Shown: piece after piece, positions 7,630-14,623 of the stretch | Layout of the letters: the number at the start of each line of letters is the position of its first letter | How positions within the stretch are numbered: the first letter of the stretch is position 1 | Assembly (NCBI GenBank): GCA_030653545.1 | Contig: JAURZE010000028.1 | Location: 212,607-276,606 of the forward strand | Length of the DNA stretch: 64,000 bases | Reading direction: 5' to 3' | Source: Nitrospira sp. | GTDB taxonomy: Bacteria; Nitrospirota; Nitrospiria; Nitrospirales; Nitrospiraceae | Notes under the pieces: model-generated | The model's input: the letters and a program-made list of their open reading frames with translations, nothing else | Told to the model about the DNA's origin: nothing | Database searches by the model: none | Translations under genes and position numbers: made by a program

Positions 7630-9138
7630 ATGAAGATCATGCGAGTAGATGCACGGGCCGGGCGTGTGGAGACGGAATCAACTGATGTGTTGGTCCTGAC
7701 CCATTGCGAGGGCGATGTCTTTTCGAAACAGGCGACGATGATCGATAAATCGATGAACGGGGCCTTACACGAGTTGCTGCAGTCGAAAGAATTTGAAGGT
7801 AAGGCCAATGAGCTTGTGCTGGTGCATACCCAGGGCAAGGTGCCTGCCAAGCGGATTCTCCTGGTGGGGTTGGGGAAAGAGAAGGATGTGACGGTGGATC
7901 AGCTGCGGCAGGCCATGGGGCATGCGGTGAAGCGCGTCCGGCAGGCCAAGGCCGGTTTCTTCACGGTCGGGGTTCCCTCCGTCACCCCACAGGGTTCGAC
8001 CGCCGTTGAGGTGGCCCAGGCGATGGCCGAGGGGGCCATTCTGGGCAGCTATCAGTTCACGGCCTACCGAAGCGAGGGCGCGTCGGGAAAAGAGGTGAAA
8101 GGGATGTCGCTCCTGGCGGCTCAGACGAGCGAGCTCAAGGCGATGACCGAAGGGATCCGGCGCGGTGTGGCGACGGCCGAAGCCGCGGTCCTGGTGCGAG
8201 ATTTGTGCAACCATCCGTCGAATGTCATGACTCCCTCGCGGATTGCCACTGAGGCGAAGGCTATCGCGAAGGAAGAGGCGCTCACGCTCAAGATCCTGGA
8301 GCGGAAAGATATTGAAAAGCTCGGGATGGGGGCATTGCTGGGTGTGGCGCAAGGCAGCCATGAGCCGCCGAAGTTCATCATTCTCGAATACAAGGGATCG
8401 AAGAAGAAGGATGAACGTCCGGTTGTGTTGGTCGGGAAGACGATCACGTTCGATACCGGCGGAATTTCTCTCAAGCCGGCGGAGAACATGGAACATATGA
8501 AGGCGGACATGACCGGCGGCGCCGAGGTGTTGGCCTCAATCCGCGCGGCCGCGCGGTTGAAGCTGCCGCTTCATCTGATCAGCATTCTCCCGGTGGCCGA
8601 GAATATGCCGGGCGGTCGGGCGATGAAGCCGGGTGACGTCGTCACGACACTCTCCGGAAAAACAGTTGAAGTGCAGAACACTGATGCGGAAGGCCGCCTG
8701 ATTCTGGCCGATGCGCTGGCCTACGCCACCCGCTACAAACCGGCGGCATTGATCGACATTGCGACGCTCACGGGCGCCTGCGTGGTGGCGCTCGGCCAAT
8801 TTGCCATCGGGATGTTCGGAACCGATGTCGGCGTGAAGGAGTCGGTGCGGAAAGCCGGCCTCCGCGCGGGCGAGCGCGTGTGGGAAATGCCGCTGTGGGA
8901 CGAATACTTCGAGCAGCTGCGCAGCGACGTGGCGGACATGCGCAACATCGGGGGCCGCGGGGGCGGGATGATCACGGCCGCGTTGTTCCTGAGCAAGTTC
9001 GTGGGCGACTGTCCGTGGGTCCATCTCGATATCGCCAGCACGGACTGGAGCGAACGGGAGCGGGCCTATGTTCCCAAGGGCCCCTCAGGAATTGGGACTA
9101 GATTGCTCATTCAGTATTTGATCGATCGAACGCTGTGA
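7630..9138 (+). CDS. pepA: Leucyl aminopeptidase, M17 family
   Basis: This 502-residue protein is a cytosolic dinuclear-metal aminopeptidase that removes N-terminal residues from peptides. The C-terminal catalytic half shows the family blocks GKTITFDTGGISLKP, MKADMTGGA and NTDAEGRLILADAL, which carry the metal-binding Lys, Asp and Glu residues and the catalytic Lys/Arg. An AGAAGGAG ribosome site lies just upstream. The last 19 codons plus stop are repeated, with only synonymous changes, about 90 bases downstream (9171-9230). This suggests the locus has undergone allele replacement. Confidence 0.96.
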   Translation: MKIMRVDARAGRVETESTDVLVLTHCEGDVFSKQATMIDKSMNGALHELLQSKEFEGKANELVLVHTQGKVPAKRILLVGLGKEKDVTVDQLRQAMGHAVKRVRQAKAGFFTVGVPSVTPQGSTAVEVAQAMAEGAILGSYQFTAYRSEGASGKEVKGMSLLAAQTSELKAMTEGIRRGVATAEAAVLVRDLCNHPSNVMTPSRIATEAKAIAKEEALTLKILERKDIEKLGMGALLGVAQGSHEPPKFIILEYKGSKKKDERPVVLVGKTITFDTGGISLKPAENMEHMKADMTGGAEVLASIRAAARLKLPLHLISILPVAENMPGGRAMKPGDVVTTLSGKTVEVQNTDAEGRLILADALAYATRYKPAALIDIATLTGACVVALGQFAIGMFGTDVGVKESVRKAGLRAGERVWEMPLWDEYFEQLRSDVADMRNIGGRGGGMITAALFLSKFVGDCPWVHLDIASTDWSERERAYVPKGPSGIGTRLLIQYLIDRTL

Positions 9139-9167
9139 TGTGGTTGGGAAACGGGATTCCTACTCCT

Positions 9168-9230
9168 ATGGGCCCCTCAGGGATCGGCACCAGATTGCTG
9201 ATTCAGTATCTCATCGACCGGACACTCTGA
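9168..9230 (+). pseudogene. Relic of a second pepA 3' end
   Basis: Bases 9171-9230 encode GPSGIGTRLLIQYLIDRTL plus stop, the same 19 residues that end the intact pepA at 9079-9138. The two 60-base stretches differ at 11 positions, all synonymous. A gene fragment drifting freely would also collect amino acid changes. This tail therefore looks like the end of a different functional pepA left behind after replacement. It has an in-frame ATG at 9168 but no ribosome site and is unlikely to be expressed. Confidence 0.8.
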
Positions 9231-9251
9231 CCTCAGTAGGGGATTTCGTCC

Positions 9252-10355
9252 ATGCTCATGTCGCGCGAGAAGATCGGCCAGTTGTTCATGGTGGGGTTCG
9301 AGGGGACCTCGGTCACGCCCGACCTGGCGGCGTTCATCAAGGAATACAAGCCGGGCGGCGTGATTCTCTTCTCGCGCAACCTTGAATCGATTGAGCAGAT
9401 TGTCGAGTTGACGAATGCCTTGCAGGCCTGCAGCCCCCATTCGCCCTTGTTGATTTCAATCGATCAGGAAGGCGGCCGGGTCTCACGATTGCCGAAGACC
9501 TTCACCATCTTCCCCCCTTGCGAGGTGTTGGGGCGCTGTAATTCGTCGGAGCTCGCTTACGCGGCGGCGGCGACGATTGCGAAGGAACTCCGGGCTGTCG
9601 GGATCAACATGAACATGTCCCCGGTGTTGGATGTGAACTGCAATCCCTCCAATCCGGTGATCGGTGACCGAGCCTTTGGATCGACGCCCGGCCCGGTCTG
9701 TGAATTGGGCCTGGCGACGGTGGGCGGATTACAGGACAACCGGGTGGTGGCCTGCGGAAAGCATTTCCCCGGTCATGGCGATACCAGTGTGGATTCGCAC
9801 AAAGAATTGCCTGTGGTGACCGCATCGAAGGAACGACTGGAACAGATCGAATTTCCACCGTTCCGTCATGCGACGGCCCATGGGGTGGCGACGCTGATGA
9901 CGGCGCATGTGCTGTATCGCGCGCTGGACGATCAAAAGCCGGCTACGCTCTCTCCGGCCATCATCACGGAGTTTTTGCGCGGTGAGCTGAAGTACGATGG
10001 CGTGGTATTGACGGATGATTTGGAGATGCACGCGATCATCGATCACTATGGCATTGAAGAGGCCACGGTGCGGGCCATTCAAGCAGGGTGTGACATGCCG
10101 TTGATCTGCAAGGACCGCAATCGGGAGATTGCGGCGATCACGGCACTGGATAGCGCCGTGGCTGATGGTTCGATCAGCGCCGAGCGGTTGGAGCAATCCC
10201 TGGCCAGGATCGCCCGATTGAAACAGCGGTTTCTGGTTCCGTACAAACCGGTCGTGATTTCGGATGCCAAGCTGATCGTCGGGTGCCGAAGTCATCACGT
10301 CTTGCTTCGTTCCATCCATCAGGCCCGCGAACGATTGGCGAAAGCCACGGTGTGA
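9252..10355 (+). CDS. nagZ: Beta-N-acetylhexosaminidase (NagZ-like, GH3)
   Basis: This 367-residue glycoside hydrolase family 3 protein has the NagZ landmarks: ISIDQEGGRVSRL near the N-terminal third, KHFPGHGDTSVDSH (catalytic His and substrate-binding Lys/His) in the middle, and LTDDLEM with the nucleophile Asp. NagZ removes N-acetylglucosamine from cell-wall muropeptides in the cytoplasm during recycling. There is no signal peptide, as expected. An alternative start lies two codons inside (9258). The stop overlaps the GTG start of the next gene by four bases. Confidence 0.93.
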   Translation: MLMSREKIGQLFMVGFEGTSVTPDLAAFIKEYKPGGVILFSRNLESIEQIVELTNALQACSPHSPLLISIDQEGGRVSRLPKTFTIFPPCEVLGRCNSSELAYAAAATIAKELRAVGINMNMSPVLDVNCNPSNPVIGDRAFGSTPGPVCELGLATVGGLQDNRVVACGKHFPGHGDTSVDSHKELPVVTASKERLEQIEFPPFRHATAHGVATLMTAHVLYRALDDQKPATLSPAIITEFLRGELKYDGVVLTDDLEMHAIIDHYGIEEATVRAIQAGCDMPLICKDRNREIAAITALDSAVADGSISAERLEQSLARIARLKQRFLVPYKPVVISDAKLIVGCRSHHVLLRSIHQARERLAKATV

Positions 10356-11635
10356 TCTCCCAGCCCTCCTTTCCAGCCGGTCGCCGAGAACTTTGGGCCT
10401 GGTGCTTCTACGATTTTGCGAACTCTTCCTTTTCCACCCTGATCGTGACGGTCGCCTACAGCGTCTACTTCATCCAGGTGGTGGCAGCCGATGTGTCGCC
10501 GTCGGGCATGGCCGAGCGACTCTGGTTTTGGGGCTATGCGCTGTCGATGCTGGTGGTGGCGCTGGTATCTCCCGTGCTTGGGGCGTTGGCGGATATCCGT
10601 GCAAACAAGCGGAGGGTGCTGATCGCTTCCACGCTTCTCTGTGTGGTCTGCACCGCGCTTTTGTGGTTCGTACACCGCGGTGATGTGGCGCTGGGACTGT
10701 TTATTTTTGGGATCGCCAATATCGGCTTTGATGTGGGGTTTGTGTTCTGTAGTGCGTTTCTGGTGGAGCTGGTGCCGCCGCAGCAGATGGGCCGCTTGTC
10801 GGGCTATGGCTGGGGATTCGGCTATGTCGGTGGCTTGCTCTCACTGGCGCTGGCCTACCCGTTTATCGTCGGCGGCTTTGCCGACACGAATCTCGGGTCG
10901 TATCGGATGAGCTTTGTTGTGACGGCGCTGTTCTTTCTGAGTGCCACATTGCCGACGTTTCTGTACTTGCAAGAACGGGCTCAGCCGCGTTCAGTCCCTG
11001 ACGGCCTGACGGTATGGCGTGCGGTGAGCAGGCAACTGCGTGACACGGCCCGCCGTCTGTCGACCTATCGTGATCTCCGGCGCTATTTCATTGCCTATCT
11101 ACTCTATTCGGACGCCATCAATACGGTGATCGTCGCGTCGGGCATCTTTGCAAACAAAGTCCTGGACTTCACGCCGGGCGATCTGATTATCTATTTCCTC
11201 GTGACCCAGATTACGGCGGGTCTCGGCTCAGTCGGTTTCGGGTTTGTGGCGGATCGGATCGGGGCGACCCGGTCGATCGTGGTGACCTTACTGCTCTGGA
11301 TCGGCGTGGTGATTGGCGCGGCGGCCGTGCAGACGCAGATGCAGTTTTATCTGCTTGGCCTGGTGGCAGGCGCGGCGCTCGGTGCCAATCAGTCGGTGAG
11401 TCGCACGTTGCTTGGCCGGTTTACCCCGTTGGGGCATCAGGGTGAATTCTTCGGTTTCTTTTCCGTCGCCGGGAAATTTGCCGCGATTCTTGGCCCGATC
11501 GTCTACGGAGAGGTGACGGTGTGGACCGGGAGTCAGCGCTGGGCCGTGCTCTCAATGGCGCTGTTTTTTCTCGTCGGGTTGGCCGTCTTTCTTGGGGTAG
11601 ATGAACGGCGCGGTATGGCGGCTGCGCAGGAGTGA
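10352..11635 (+). CDS. MFS transporter, UMF1/Atg22-like family
   Basis: I take the GTG at 10352, which overlaps the nagZ stop (GTGA), giving about 427 residues. The N-terminal sequence RRELWAWCFYDFANSSFSTL, with YDFANS before the first helix, is typical of the UMF1/Atg22 branch of the major facilitator superfamily. About 12 hydrophobic segments follow, with a central polar loop around QERAQPRSVPDG. Coupling to NagZ makes export or import of a cell-wall recycling product attractive, but the substrate is not shown by the sequence. Confidence 0.85.
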   Translation: MISQPSFPAGRRELWAWCFYDFANSSFSTLIVTVAYSVYFIQVVAADVSPSGMAERLWFWGYALSMLVVALVSPVLGALADIRANKRRVLIASTLLCVVCTALLWFVHRGDVALGLFIFGIANIGFDVGFVFCSAFLVELVPPQQMGRLSGYGWGFGYVGGLLSLALAYPFIVGGFADTNLGSYRMSFVVTALFFLSATLPTFLYLQERAQPRSVPDGLTVWRAVSRQLRDTARRLSTYRDLRRYFIAYLLYSDAINTVIVASGIFANKVLDFTPGDLIIYFLVTQITAGLGSVGFGFVADRIGATRSIVVTLLLWIGVVIGAAAVQTQMQFYLLGLVAGAALGANQSVSRTLLGRFTPLGHQGEFFGFFSVAGKFAAILGPIVYGEVTVWTGSQRWAVLSMALFFLVGLAVFLGVDERRGMAAAQE

Positions 11636-11644
11636 GGTCACGCG

Positions 11645-12031
11645 ATGGCTCTTAAAAAAGGCGATTTCATCGATGAGCATACACGCCATCCGCATGCCTG
11701 CGGGTTGGTCGTCAAAGTTATGGGCGGAGGTGAGGGGTTTGAAAAGATTGTCTGTTGCGACCATGACCTGACCGAGCAGGATGTCGTGGCGGAGATGGGC
11801 TCACCCGCCGGCCGGAAACGAGGCGCCTTGCCGTCGGCGGTGGTCTTGGACGAGAAGAAGTTGTATCCGGATTCCTGCGGGTTGCGAGTCATGATTATGG
11901 ATGGCGGCGCGGGCTTCAAAGAAATTCGGTGCTGTGGTCACTCCTTGACGATCAGTTCGATGCGTGAATTAAAGTTCGGTCAGATGCGTGCCCCTGAGCC
12001 GGAGCAGACCGGGCAGGCTGGCACGGCCTAG
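11645..12031 (+). CDS. Doubled desulforedoxin-like small protein
   Basis: This 128-residue protein is two copies of a roughly 45-residue unit. Unit 1 has ACGLVVKVMGGGEGFEKIVC followed by CDHDLT; unit 2 has SCGLRVMIMDGGAGFKEIRC followed by CGHSLT. The pattern CG-x-V-x-VM-GG-x-GF-x-I-x-CC-x-H resembles desulforedoxin and the N-terminal domain of desulfoferrodoxin (CxxCG then CC). The first Cys of the CxxC pair is absent in both units. A conserved His two residues after the CC pair could take its place as a ligand. A zinc or iron site of Cys3His type is my inference. It follows the MFS gene by nine bases. Function unknown. Confidence 0.6.
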   Translation: MALKKGDFIDEHTRHPHACGLVVKVMGGGEGFEKIVCCDHDLTEQDVVAEMGSPAGRKRGALPSAVVLDEKKLYPDSCGLRVMIMDGGAGFKEIRCCGHSLTISSMRELKFGQMRAPEPEQTGQAGTA

Positions 12032-12050
12032 CTTGGACTGGAGGTGATGT

Positions 12051-12578
12051 ATGGGGACTGAAGAACCACGAGCTCATCGGAATGAGTTGATGCGGCGATG
12101 GTGCCACTACATGGAATGGTTGGACCGTTTGGGGTATGCAACCGCCGGGTTCAGTTTGTTGATCCTTGGCATGTTGGTGTTCATCCATGCCTGGTATGTG
12201 TTTCTCGCCGGTCAGTTCGATCCGAAGGGGCATGTGTTGATTCTTCCGGCCGGTCTCAGATTGTTAAACGATATCCTTTTGGTCATTATTCTCCTGGAGC
12301 TGTTCCGGACCGTGGTGCGATTTTTACAGACGGAAGTGTTGGAGTTGGAGCCCTATCTGTCTGTTGGCGTGATCGCTTGTACCAGGAAGATTCTGACGGC
12401 AAGCGCAGAACTGTCGCATCAGCAAAACATGACGGAAACGCAGTTCTATCAATACCTCATGGATGTGGGGCTGAACGTCACCGTGATCATTGCCCTGATT
12501 GGTGCCGTATTCATGATTCGGAAGCGGCCCGAACAGATACCGCTCCCGCCCGCAGCACCGGCGCGTGTGGGTCAGTAA
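12051..12578 (+). CDS. PsiE-like inner-membrane protein
   Basis: The 175-residue product has about four hydrophobic helices (starting near LGYATAGFSLLILGMLVFIH, then ILLVIILLELFRTVVRFL, a middle segment, and VIIALIGAVFMI). This is the layout of the phosphate-starvation-inducible PsiE family, whose biochemical role is unknown. A GAGGTGATGT site precedes the ATG. It sits between two small uncharacterised genes in the same direction and may be co-transcribed with them. No PhoB-type box was recognised upstream. Confidence 0.7.
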   Translation: MGTEEPRAHRNELMRRWCHYMEWLDRLGYATAGFSLLILGMLVFIHAWYVFLAGQFDPKGHVLILPAGLRLLNDILLVIILLELFRTVVRFLQTEVLELEPYLSVGVIACTRKILTASAELSHQQNMTETQFYQYLMDVGLNVTVIIALIGAVFMIRKRPEQIPLPPAAPARVGQ

Positions 12579-12640
12579 GGCGTTCTTGACTTGCCTGTTT
12601 CCAGGGAGTTATGGCATCATGCGCCCTCTTGGAGACCGGC

Positions 12641-13096
12641 ATGGCGAAGCTGCTTGAATACGTCGGCTGTGTGCATATCTATCTCGGTCCCTATCGAGGC
12701 AATCCGATTGCCTTGTATTTGAATCGGACGGAATCCTCCTGCCAGATCAGCCCGAAAGCCTATCCATGGAATGATGTGATGGGTGTGGGCGAGACTCCCA
12801 ACAAAGCCGCCGCCGACTTCGAAGATAAGTGGAAGTCCAAGGGGCTTGCGGCGGAGATGTATTCCGGTCCTTCCTGGGAAGGCGGGATCAAGCCGGAAAA
12901 GCCTGCACCGCCCAAACCAGCCGCGCCTCCCAAGCCGGCCGCCACGCCGGCTGCTGCAGCGGGTGCCGCTCCTGCGCCTCAACCAACAGCGTCCGCTGCT
13001 GTTGGTGCTCCAGCATTAGCCCCGACCGCCTCCTCCCCGACTGCCGCTTCCTCGGCTCCGGCGCCTGCTTCCGAGCCATCCGCCGAAACGAAGTAG
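12641..13096 (+). CDS. Hypothetical protein with Pro/Ala-rich tail
   Basis: I prefer the ATG at 12641, six bases after GGAG, over the upstream ATG at 12611. The first 85 or so residues (from MAKLLEYVGCVHIYLGPYRG) form a compact mixed region. The remaining 65 residues are almost only Pro, Ala, Ser and Lys, a flexible linker-like tail. There is no signal peptide or membrane segment. The family is not one I recognise. The gene ends 21 bases from the convergent permease gene. Confidence 0.65.
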   Translation: MAKLLEYVGCVHIYLGPYRGNPIALYLNRTESSCQISPKAYPWNDVMGVGETPNKAAADFEDKWKSKGLAAEMYSGPSWEGGIKPEKPAPPKPAAPPKPAATPAAAAGAAPAPQPTASAAVGAPALAPTASSPTAASSAPAPASEPSAETK

Positions 13097-13117
13097 TATT
13101 TCCTGATAGCAATCTGG

Positions 13118-14623
13118 CTAGTGATTGGTCGGCGAAGGCAGGCGGGCGTCTGTCGACTGATCGGCTAATTTACTGTGTCGCATGCCGTATAACCCATAAA
13201 TAATCACTCCGGCGAGCGTCCACCAAACGAAGCGATGCCAGGTGAGGGCGGGGAGTTGCCACATCAGGCCGAGGCATGAGAGCGCTCCCAACAGCGGGAT
13301 CCAGGGCATCAGCGGAGTTCTAAACGGACGTGCCAGGTGAGGACGGGTGTAGCGCAGGACGATGAGTCCAATGCACACGAGGGTGAACGCGAAGAAGGTT
13401 CCAATGTTGGTCATGTCGGCCGCGGTGCCGATGGGCACAAAGGCGGCCATGACTGCGACGCCGACGCCGGTCAGGATCGTTGCATGGTGCGGAGTCCCGA
13501 AGCGTGGATGCACTACGGACAACCATGGGCCGAGTAAGCCGTCACGTGAGATGGCGAAGAACACCCGGATCTGTCCCAGCATCATGACGACCAGCACGCT
13601 GGTAATGCCGGCGACGGCTCCCATGGCCACGACGGCTGCTCCCCACTTGTAGCCTACCAGTCGCAACGCTTCCGCCACCGGAGCGTGAATGTCGATCTGG
13701 CTATAGGGAACGAGCCCGGTCAGGACAGCAGCGACGGCCACATAGAGAATCGTACAGATACCGAGAGAGGTCATGATGCCGATCGGCAGGTCGCGTTGCG
13801 GGTTGCGCGCCTCTTCTGCCGTCGTGGTGACGGCATCAAATCCGATATAAGCGAAAAAGACGGTCGCGGCGGCAGCAGTGACTCCGGTGAATCCGTTGGG
13901 CATGAACGGAGACCAATTGTCCGGGCTGACCGCAGGGGCTCCCACGGCGATAAAAAACAAGATCACCGCCAGCTTCAGGCAGACGATGATGCCGGTCGCC
14001 CGCGCGCTTTCTTTGATGCCGATGACGAGAATGATCGTCACGAGCAGCACGATAATGGCGGCCGGGAAATTCGCAATGCCTCCCTCTGGCCCTCCGGGTG
14101 CGTGTGTGGCCCAGTCGGGCAGATCGAGGCCAGCCAGCTTCAGCAGATTGTTGAAGTAGCCGGACCAGCCGATAGCGACGGCCACGCAGGCGACGCCGTA
14201 TTCCAAGATCAGATTCCAGCCGGTGATCCAGGCAAGGAATTCTCCCAACGTGGCATAGGAATAGGTGTATGCCGACCCGGCGACGGGAATCATCGCGGCG
14301 AATTCCGCGTAGCACAAGGCGGCGAGCACGCAGGTCAGTCCCGAGAGGATGAAGGAGAGGACGATCCCGGGACCGGCTCCCGGCCGTCCTGCGTCTCCGA
14401 CAATCGCCGTTCCGATCAGCACGAAGATGCCGGTTCCGATGATGGCCCCGATGCCCAGCGCGGTCAGGTCCCAGGCACTCAATGTCCGTTTGAGGCGATA
14501 TTGCGGATGGTCGGCATCGGCTAGAATGCGTTCGATGGATTTGGTGCGAAAGAGCCGGCTCGTGACCGAGGGAGTCGTTGTCTGAGCGGCCGAGTGTTTG
14601 TCGGGATCAGGAGTAAGAGCCAT
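13118..14623 (-). CDS. Amino acid permease, APC superfamily
   Basis: The 501-residue protein has 12 or more hydrophobic segments. The first helix carries GIGAIIGTGIFVLIG, the consensus of the amino acid-polyamine-cation superfamily, preceded by a cytoplasmic N-tail ending in RTLSAWDLTAL. The overall look (EYGVACVAVAIGWSGYF, VTTTAEEARNPQRDLPIGI) is that of the cationic amino acid transporter-like branch (YfnA/CAT). Proton-coupled uptake of amino acids is expected; the substrate is not determinable here. Confidence 0.9.
   Translation of the reverse strand: MALTPDPDKHSAAQTTTPSVTSRLFRTKSIERILADADHPQYRLKRTLSAWDLTALGIGAIIGTGIFVLIGTAIVGDAGRPGAGPGIVLSFILSGLTCVLAALCYAEFAAMIPVAGSAYTYSYATLGEFLAWITGWNLILEYGVACVAVAIGWSGYFNNLLKLAGLDLPDWATHAPGGPEGGIANFPAAIIVLLVTIILVIGIKESARATGIIVCLKLAVILFFIAVGAPAVSPDNWSPFMPNGFTGVTAAAATVFFAYIGFDAVTTTAEEARNPQRDLPIGIMTSLGICTILYVAVAAVLTGLVPYSQIDIHAPVAEALRLVGYKWGAAVVAMGAVAGITSVLVVMMLGQIRVFFAISRDGLLGPWLSVVHPRFGTPHHATILTGVGVAVMAAFVPIGTAADMTNIGTFFAFTLVCIGLIVLRYTRPHLARPFRTPLMPWIPLLGALSCLGLMWQLPALTWHRFVWWTLAGVIIYGLYGMRHSKLADQSTDARLPSPTNH

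Follow-up and report, generated by a model that had tools for sequence, protein, structure and literature searches.

Results

Two Desulforedoxin-Like Repeats at the Locus

A 64,000-nucleotide stretch of a Nitrospira sp. genome (contig JAURZE010000028.1, positions 212,607 to 276,606; hereafter the window) contains a short open reading frame (ORF) on its forward strand at 11645–12031. It is translated into 128 amino acids without an internal stop, and the name DRX2 is used here for this product. Two repeats resembling desulforedoxin (Dx), a linker, and a tail were recognized in it, as listed below; pLDDT is the predicted local distance difference test.

11645–12031, + strand: DRX2, protein of two Dx-like repeats (ORF translation; homologues in the order of the window)
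11669–11773, + strand: repeat 1 core, residues 9–43 (self-alignment; the model of residues 1–50 fits 1dxg)
11846–11950, + strand: repeat 2 core, residues 68–102 (self-alignment; profile match to repeat 1)
11810–11824, + strand: basic linker between the repeats, around G56-R57 to G60 (residue conservation)
11975–12028, + strand: disordered tail ending in a conserved Gly-x-Ala (pLDDT below 50 for residues 111–127; conservation)

An initial annotation, made from the nucleotide sequence, had described ACG or SCG, a GG-x-GF turn, and CC-x-H in each half. All of these were found in the translation as stated, in the form ACG...GGGEGF...CCDH in repeat 1 and SCG...GGAGF...CCGH in repeat 2. Residues 9–43 and 68–102 gave a gapless 35-residue self-alignment with a BLOSUM62 score of 104, which was unreached in 5000 shuffles (mean 21.9, maximum 69). 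The repeat does not depend on the motif letters alone, because the score observed with C, H, and G masked was reached by just 2 of 5000 shuffles. A profile–profile comparison of repeat 1 with repeat 2 gave an E-value of 3e-25, for which each profile contained 20 rows, one of them (L040) out of place.

Conservation was evaluated on the homologues from 94 loci, which were reduced to 84 distinct proteins (168 repeats) by removing 10 identical ones. The residue counts were taken from a separate protein alignment and not from the locus alignments, of which a few rows (L037, L038, and L040) seem to carry extra upstream residues. The mean identity was 76% among the repeat 1 copies and 76% among the repeat 2 copies, exceeding the 56% obtained between repeats 1 and 2, so that the duplication predates the spread of the family. 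In the linker (residues 56–60), a basic motif around a Gly-Arg pair is strongly conserved, with R57 kept in 84/84 distinct homologues and G56 and G60 in 93/94 rows.

Conservation of the Putative Metal Site

The residues that correspond to the metal site of Dx, together with those considered as a fourth ligand, are located as follows.

11675–11677, + strand: Glu11 of repeat 1, invariant, possible fourth ligand or second-shell residue (84/84)
11690–11692, + strand: Pro16 of repeat 1, at the position of the absent first Cys (Pro 79/84, Ser 3, Gln 2, Cys 0)
11699–11701, + strand: Cys19 of repeat 1, second Cys of the Dx set (84/84, both Cys codons used)
11753–11758, + strand: Cys37-Cys38 of repeat 1, third and fourth Cys of the Dx set (84/84 each)
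11762–11764, + strand: His40 of CC-x-H in repeat 1, candidate fourth ligand (82/84, Gln 1, Ser 1)
11852–11854, + strand: Glu70, repeat 2 counterpart of Glu11 (84/84)
11867–11869, + strand: Pro75 of repeat 2, at the position of the absent first Cys (Pro 76/84, Cys 0)
11876–11878, + strand: Cys78 of repeat 2 (84/84)
11930–11935, + strand: Cys96-Cys97 of repeat 2 (84/84 each)
11939–11941, + strand: His99 of CC-x-H in repeat 2, candidate fourth ligand (82/84, Arg 2)

The six Cys of DRX2 were invariant in all 84 distinct homologues with both Cys codons in use, and the first Cys of the Dx set was absent from both repeats (positions 16 and 75) in every one of them. Only six positions carried an identical letter in 168/168 repeats, namely E11/E70, C19/C78, G29/G88, G31/G90, C37/C96, and C38/C97, and 25 positions were invariant across the 84 proteins. 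None of these proteins lacked both His40 and His99. The model places each Glu in a short helical turn ahead of the CG cysteine, in a region containing residues that have no counterpart in Dx. The median ratio of nonsynonymous to synonymous substitution rates (dN/dS, NG86) against the window copy was 0.04, as evaluated from the 16 of 83 pairs for which dS lay between 0 and 2; the remaining 67 pairs (dS undefined or ≥2) were excluded. DRX2 is under strong purifying selection, and at such a ratio it is not decaying.

These data bear directly on the initial annotation, which had noted that the first Cys of the CxxC pair is gone in both halves and had named the lack of conservation of the remaining Cys and His among homologues as the observation that would overturn its view. 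The absence of the Cys held throughout the family, and the remaining Cys and His proved to be conserved. Its proposal of a changed metal site rather than decay agrees with the conservation and with the dN/dS, and from the fold and the conservation we infer that DRX2 binds metal. Two of its statements need modification. Although a His is indeed conserved after the CC, the Glu before the CG cysteine is the stricter of the two; the fourth ligand may be either His or Glu, because the Glu is identical in all repeats and 4 of the 168 lack the His. Furthermore, both units do lack the first Cys, but this does not necessarily reflect two losses. The Cys was probably lost once, before the duplication, because P-x-x-C-G-L, the D/E-E preceding it, and CC-x-H are common to the two repeats and absent from the Dx rows.

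Predicted Fold of DRX2

The AlphaFold model of repeat 1 (50 residues, 37 sequences) exhibited a mean pLDDT of 79.5 and a predicted template modeling score (pTM) of 0.55, and this best of five models was the only one used for the fold search. Foldseek with this model placed Dx (1dxg) at rank 1 of the 14 PDB chains found at E-values up to 10 among 350,542 chains (E 0.088, probability 0.99), and ranks 1–6 were all Dx or desulfoferrodoxin. VIA-align superimposed the model on 1dxg with a Z-score of 4.4 and a root-mean-square deviation of 1.3 Å over 36/36 residues, and 1dxg was the sole chain of 15 that gave a Z-score of at least 2. Repeat 1 is predicted to adopt the Dx fold, in line with the initial annotation, which had found the motifs of each half much like desulforedoxin; the match in sequence is weak.

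The whole-chain model (53 sequences) showed a mean pLDDT of 80.6 and a pTM of 0.71, with the same strand order in both halves. The confidence for repeat 1 was higher in the whole chain (blocks of 89–94) than for the repeat alone. Desulforedoxin is a homodimer. The tandem repeats and the pTM of the whole chain, obtained despite 17 disordered tail residues, suggest that the two halves may pack as an internal pseudo-dimer.

Several other candidates were examined and rejected. A Klebsiella phage baseplate or tail chain, which VIA-align matched to the whole-chain model, was weak (Z-score 2.6), and the single-repeat model resolved the fold instead. Matches to transcription activator-like effector (TALE) repeats in the PDB sequence searches were sums of many weak repeats, each single stretch listed having an i-Evalue above 100. 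The Rtf2 RING family was detected by Pfam under its cut-off (E 0.028). A CDGSH-type [2Fe-2S] site with Cys3His was also considered, and that family was absent from the Pfam scan at E 10.

Comparison with Desulforedoxin and Desulfoferrodoxin

The predicted fold of repeat 1, the CG and CC cysteines in register, and a Gly-rich hairpin are common to DRX2 and the desulforedoxin of Desulfovibrio gigas (1dxg) or the family PF06397. Unlike desulforedoxin, DRX2 lacks the first Cys, has a hairpin longer by two residues, extra residues before the CG cysteine, and CC-x-H, and places two repeats in one chain with a tail of conserved end. The position of the CC-x-H His was occupied by Q in 18, K in 3, E in 2, I in 1, and H in none of the 24 Dx rows of the same phylum. 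CxxC and CC were present in 30/30 Dx loci read, which were the 30 best Pfam matches; the pattern used itself required CxxC and CC, and matched in all 30. The two families show a reciprocal swap, in which Dx has the first Cys with Q, K, E, or I two residues after CC, and DRX2 has no first Cys with His at that place.

Desulfoferrodoxin, or 2Fe superoxide reductase (2ji1, 1vzg, and 1dfx; TIGR00320), carries an N-terminal Dx domain that matches repeat 1 of DRX2, whereas the second half of DRX2 is another Dx-like repeat instead of a superoxide reductase domain. The latter domain (center II, Fe(His)4(Cys)) was not among the Pfam matches of DRX2 up to E 10. In Treponema pallidum, the class III superoxide reductase (1Y07) has a cysteine-poor Dx domain at its N-terminus. 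That enzyme carries a superoxide reductase site, whereas DRX2 keeps three invariant Cys per repeat. According to PMC3116461, this N-terminal domain contains no iron and belongs to the same wider family, and the desulforedoxin-type site of desulfoferrodoxin is Fe(Cys)4. Such an Fe(Cys)4 center cannot be formed within one DRX2 repeat, because the conserved Cys number three per repeat.

Gene Neighborhood and PsiE

The genes adjoining DRX2, including members of the major facilitator superfamily (MFS) and glycoside hydrolase family 3 (GH3), are as follows.

9252–10355, + strand: nagZ-like GH3 hydrolase gene, upstream conserved neighbor (PF00933; neighborhood maps)
10283–11635, + strand: MFS/Atg22-like transporter gene between nagZ and DRX2 (PF11700, PF07690)
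12051–12578, + strand: psiE-family membrane protein gene, next downstream of DRX2 (PF06146, E 4.5e-10)

Nine bases separate the transporter stop from the DRX2 start, and 19 bases separate DRX2 from psiE; with its start as called, the transporter gene includes the last 73 bases of nagZ. No promoter of its own was evident for DRX2, since the one promoter-like site in 9000–13300 was on the other strand, as compared with 1.5 expected. The block runs pepA, nagZ, (transporter), DRX2, psiE, a gene for a Pro/Ala-rich protein, and an amino acid permease gene on the other strand. The gene order is repeated at the homologous loci, some of which lack psiE and many of which showed no transporter gene, and the neighborhood is similar in three families of the order. 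The ten neighbors scanned with Pfam comprised peptidases, the GH3 hydrolase, transporters, an amidotransferase-like protein, PsiE, and three without a match, among which neither a metal-resistance or regulator family nor an obvious redox partner gene was found.

Of the 60 genomes that possess DRX2, 46 have a psiE gene no more than 500 bp away from it. Within the genus, DRX2 and a close psiE (≥73% identity) were both present in the same 13 of 79 genomes and neither was present in the other 66, of which 16 showed distant psiE matches only (≤52% identical). We then refer to the nagZ locus in 20 same-genus genomes without DRX2. In 16 of them nagZ was followed by the Pro/Ala-rich gene, with DRX2 and psiE undetected between the two; in 2 the contig ended too soon, and in 2 none of DRX2, psiE, or the Pro/Ala-rich gene was present in the stretch covered. 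The Pro/Ala-rich protein, located at 12611–13096 in the window and without a Pfam match at E 0.01, is therefore kept by nagZ at 16/20 of the same-genus loci that lack both DRX2 and psiE.

To our knowledge, no biochemical function has been established for PsiE. Elsewhere in bacteria it belongs to stress-tolerance islands, in which it accompanies chaperones, proteases, and thioredoxin, according to PMC7685784 and PMC5347186. This island context gives at most a hint of a role in envelope or protein stress.

The tail of DRX2 ends in Gly-x-Ala, of which G126 was conserved in 84/84 homologues and A128 was Ala in 82, Ser in 1, and a gap in 1 (row L054, whose sequence stops at a contig end). Because this end is conserved with all Gly and Ala codons in use, and follows a disordered linker of variable length, it points to a recognized C-terminal tail. 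The Gly-x-Ala end itself (residues 126–128) is located at 12020–12028. A tag shared across the genome was also considered and rejected, as TG[PQ]xGxA-stop occurred 3 times forward and 0 times reverse, compared with 1 and 5 for the reversed control.

Distribution in the Phylum and the Genus

A single-sequence search detected DRX2 in 60 of 295 genomes of the phylum, and a profile search detected it in 90 of 395. Of the latter matches, 88 had E-values below 1e-55 and were located in three families of the window's order, which we take to be Nitrospirales; the other two (G233 and G032; E 0.001 and 0.0045) contained internal stops and were treated as chance. Of 245 phylum genomes searched, 50 contained Dx scoring over the Pfam cut-off, and none of the 50 belonged to the class of the window. 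A one-sequence contig scan, which finds close relatives only, gave 33 loci labeled Nitrospira, Nitrospirae, or similar, and once Nitrospinota. No DRX2 homologue was detected in plasmids (tblastn, E 1), and 59 pattern matches in viral contigs included no confirmed relative.

Since DRX2 keeps its position in further genera and families, its absence from 66 of the 79 genomes of the genus is best read as loss. Nitrospira are mainly nitrite oxidizers, and AmoA marks the comammox (complete ammonia-oxidizing) members. PF02461 (AmoA; some matches being fragments) was present in 0/13 genomes of the genus with DRX2 and in 49/66 without it (Fisher P 4.5e-7). We do not accept a functional link between DRX2 and comammox on this ground, because 17 genomes have neither, the genomes cannot be counted as independent, and a single clade may account for the pattern.

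Discussion

We lean, with moderate confidence, toward DRX2 being a cytoplasmic tandem Dx-fold metalloprotein, in which each repeat holds a metal with three Cys and a new fourth ligand, and which works with PsiE. In this proposal, the two repeats would pack as the subunits do in the desulforedoxin homodimer and be joined by the basic linker. Each repeat would hold one mononuclear metal through its three Cys, the counterparts of the last three in the Dx set, the first Cys having been replaced once, before the duplication, by the new ligand. The His of CC-x-H is the most likely candidate for it, and the invariant Glu before the CG cysteine a less likely one. Zinc would be narrowly preferred over iron because the scanned neighbors offer no obvious redox partner, and DRX2 would then be a small structural or adaptor module and not an electron carrier. 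The conserved C-terminus may link it to the neighboring membrane protein PsiE. A small metal-holding adaptor near the membrane with PsiE is the best-supported role.

Several observations weigh against this proposal. The sequence likeness to Dx, while in register, is weak: Desulfoferrod_N (PF06397) matched DRX2 with E 6.7e-4 and 19.7 bits, under the curated cut-off of 23 that was exceeded by 0/20 relatives of DRX2, and the NCBIfam matches to TIGR00320 (dfx_rbo) and TIGR00319 (desulf_FeS4) were also under their curated cut-offs, the former covering only residues 17–43 with 18.1 bits versus 146.9. The PDB sequence search reached desulforedoxin at E 0.9, and a comparison by hhalign with 24 Dx domains from this phylum gave probabilities of just 53% for repeat 1 (E 1.4e-4) and 18% for repeat 2 (E 1.3e-3). 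As for the structure, the other four of the five repeat 1 models had mean pLDDT values of 53–63, and none of the Foldseek matches of the best one reached E 0.001, though short chains score low. VIA-align itself rates a Z-score of 4.4 as low, although Dx is a chain of just 36 residues, and the whole-chain model had no convincing match in the PDB (Foldseek best E 0.91; VIA-align best Z-score 2.6). The His was replaced in four repeats (by Q, S, R, and R) with all Cys kept, which is unusual for an essential ligand. PsiE is not an obligatory neighbor, because 14 of the 60 genomes with DRX2, all outside the genus, have no psiE within 500 bp, and the joint absence of the two genes within the genus is weak evidence of a shared function because it may represent one deletion in one clade.

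Another explanation is that DRX2 is an iron-loaded redox protein, in which each repeat coordinates Fe by Cys3-His or Cys3-Glu and acts as a rubredoxin-type carrier with a shifted potential. The closest fold is that of desulforedoxin, whose type of site in desulfoferrodoxin holds iron (PMC3116461), and in the phylum Dx passes its cut-off only outside the class in which DRX2 occurs; the lack of an obvious redox partner gene adjoining DRX2 speaks against it. We regard this explanation as unlikely but serious, and its share of probability overlaps with that of the Cys3-plus-ligand adaptor, since both have the same fold and Cys3 site. An open three-thiolate site, which would accept an exchangeable ligand or a soft metal such as Cu(I), As(III), or Hg(II), keep both His and Glu in the second shell, and act as a metal sensor or buffer, would account for the occasional loss of the His where the three Cys are never lost. 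Such a site is improbable, considering that the Glu is invariant and that the ten neighbors scanned contain no metal-resistance or regulator family.

Still less probable is that the metal was lost from the fold and that the Cys were kept for disulfides or thiol chemistry: three Cys per repeat are odd for disulfides, the CC pair keeps the Dx register, and none of the 168 repeats departs from the Cys pattern. The missing first Cys in both halves and the Pfam match under the cut-off could also be expected of a decaying desulforedoxin or a chance pattern, but the low dN/dS, the 25 invariant positions, and the similar gene neighborhood in three families of the order leave this idea almost no credit, and the conservation has already refuted it.

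We tentatively extend the adaptor proposal to a wider one that we hold possible, though somewhat doubtful. DRX2 may found a metalloprotein family of Nitrospirales, in which the Dx site was remodeled a single time, to Cys3-His or Cys3-Glu, and then duplicated into a single-chain pseudo-dimer, which docks by its Gly-x-Ala end on a partner such as PsiE and takes the place of canonical Dx in this branch. The Dx fold is known, and the altered site and the tandem arrangement make DRX2 a variant of it; no description of a DRX2-type protein was found in the open-access literature on Nitrospira with desulfoferrodoxin or desulforedoxin, which is a limited test. DRX2 would represent a natural change of ligand, under strong selection, in a metal-binding fold that is among the smallest known. 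The change occurs in both halves of one chain and is well suited to testing the conversion of a Cys4 site into a mixed-ligand one. DRX2 also divides the phylum into lineages with canonical Dx and one order with the altered form, and provides a way into the study of an unexplained protein, widespread in the order, that was found in 0/49 genomes of the genus with an ammonia monooxygenase gene.
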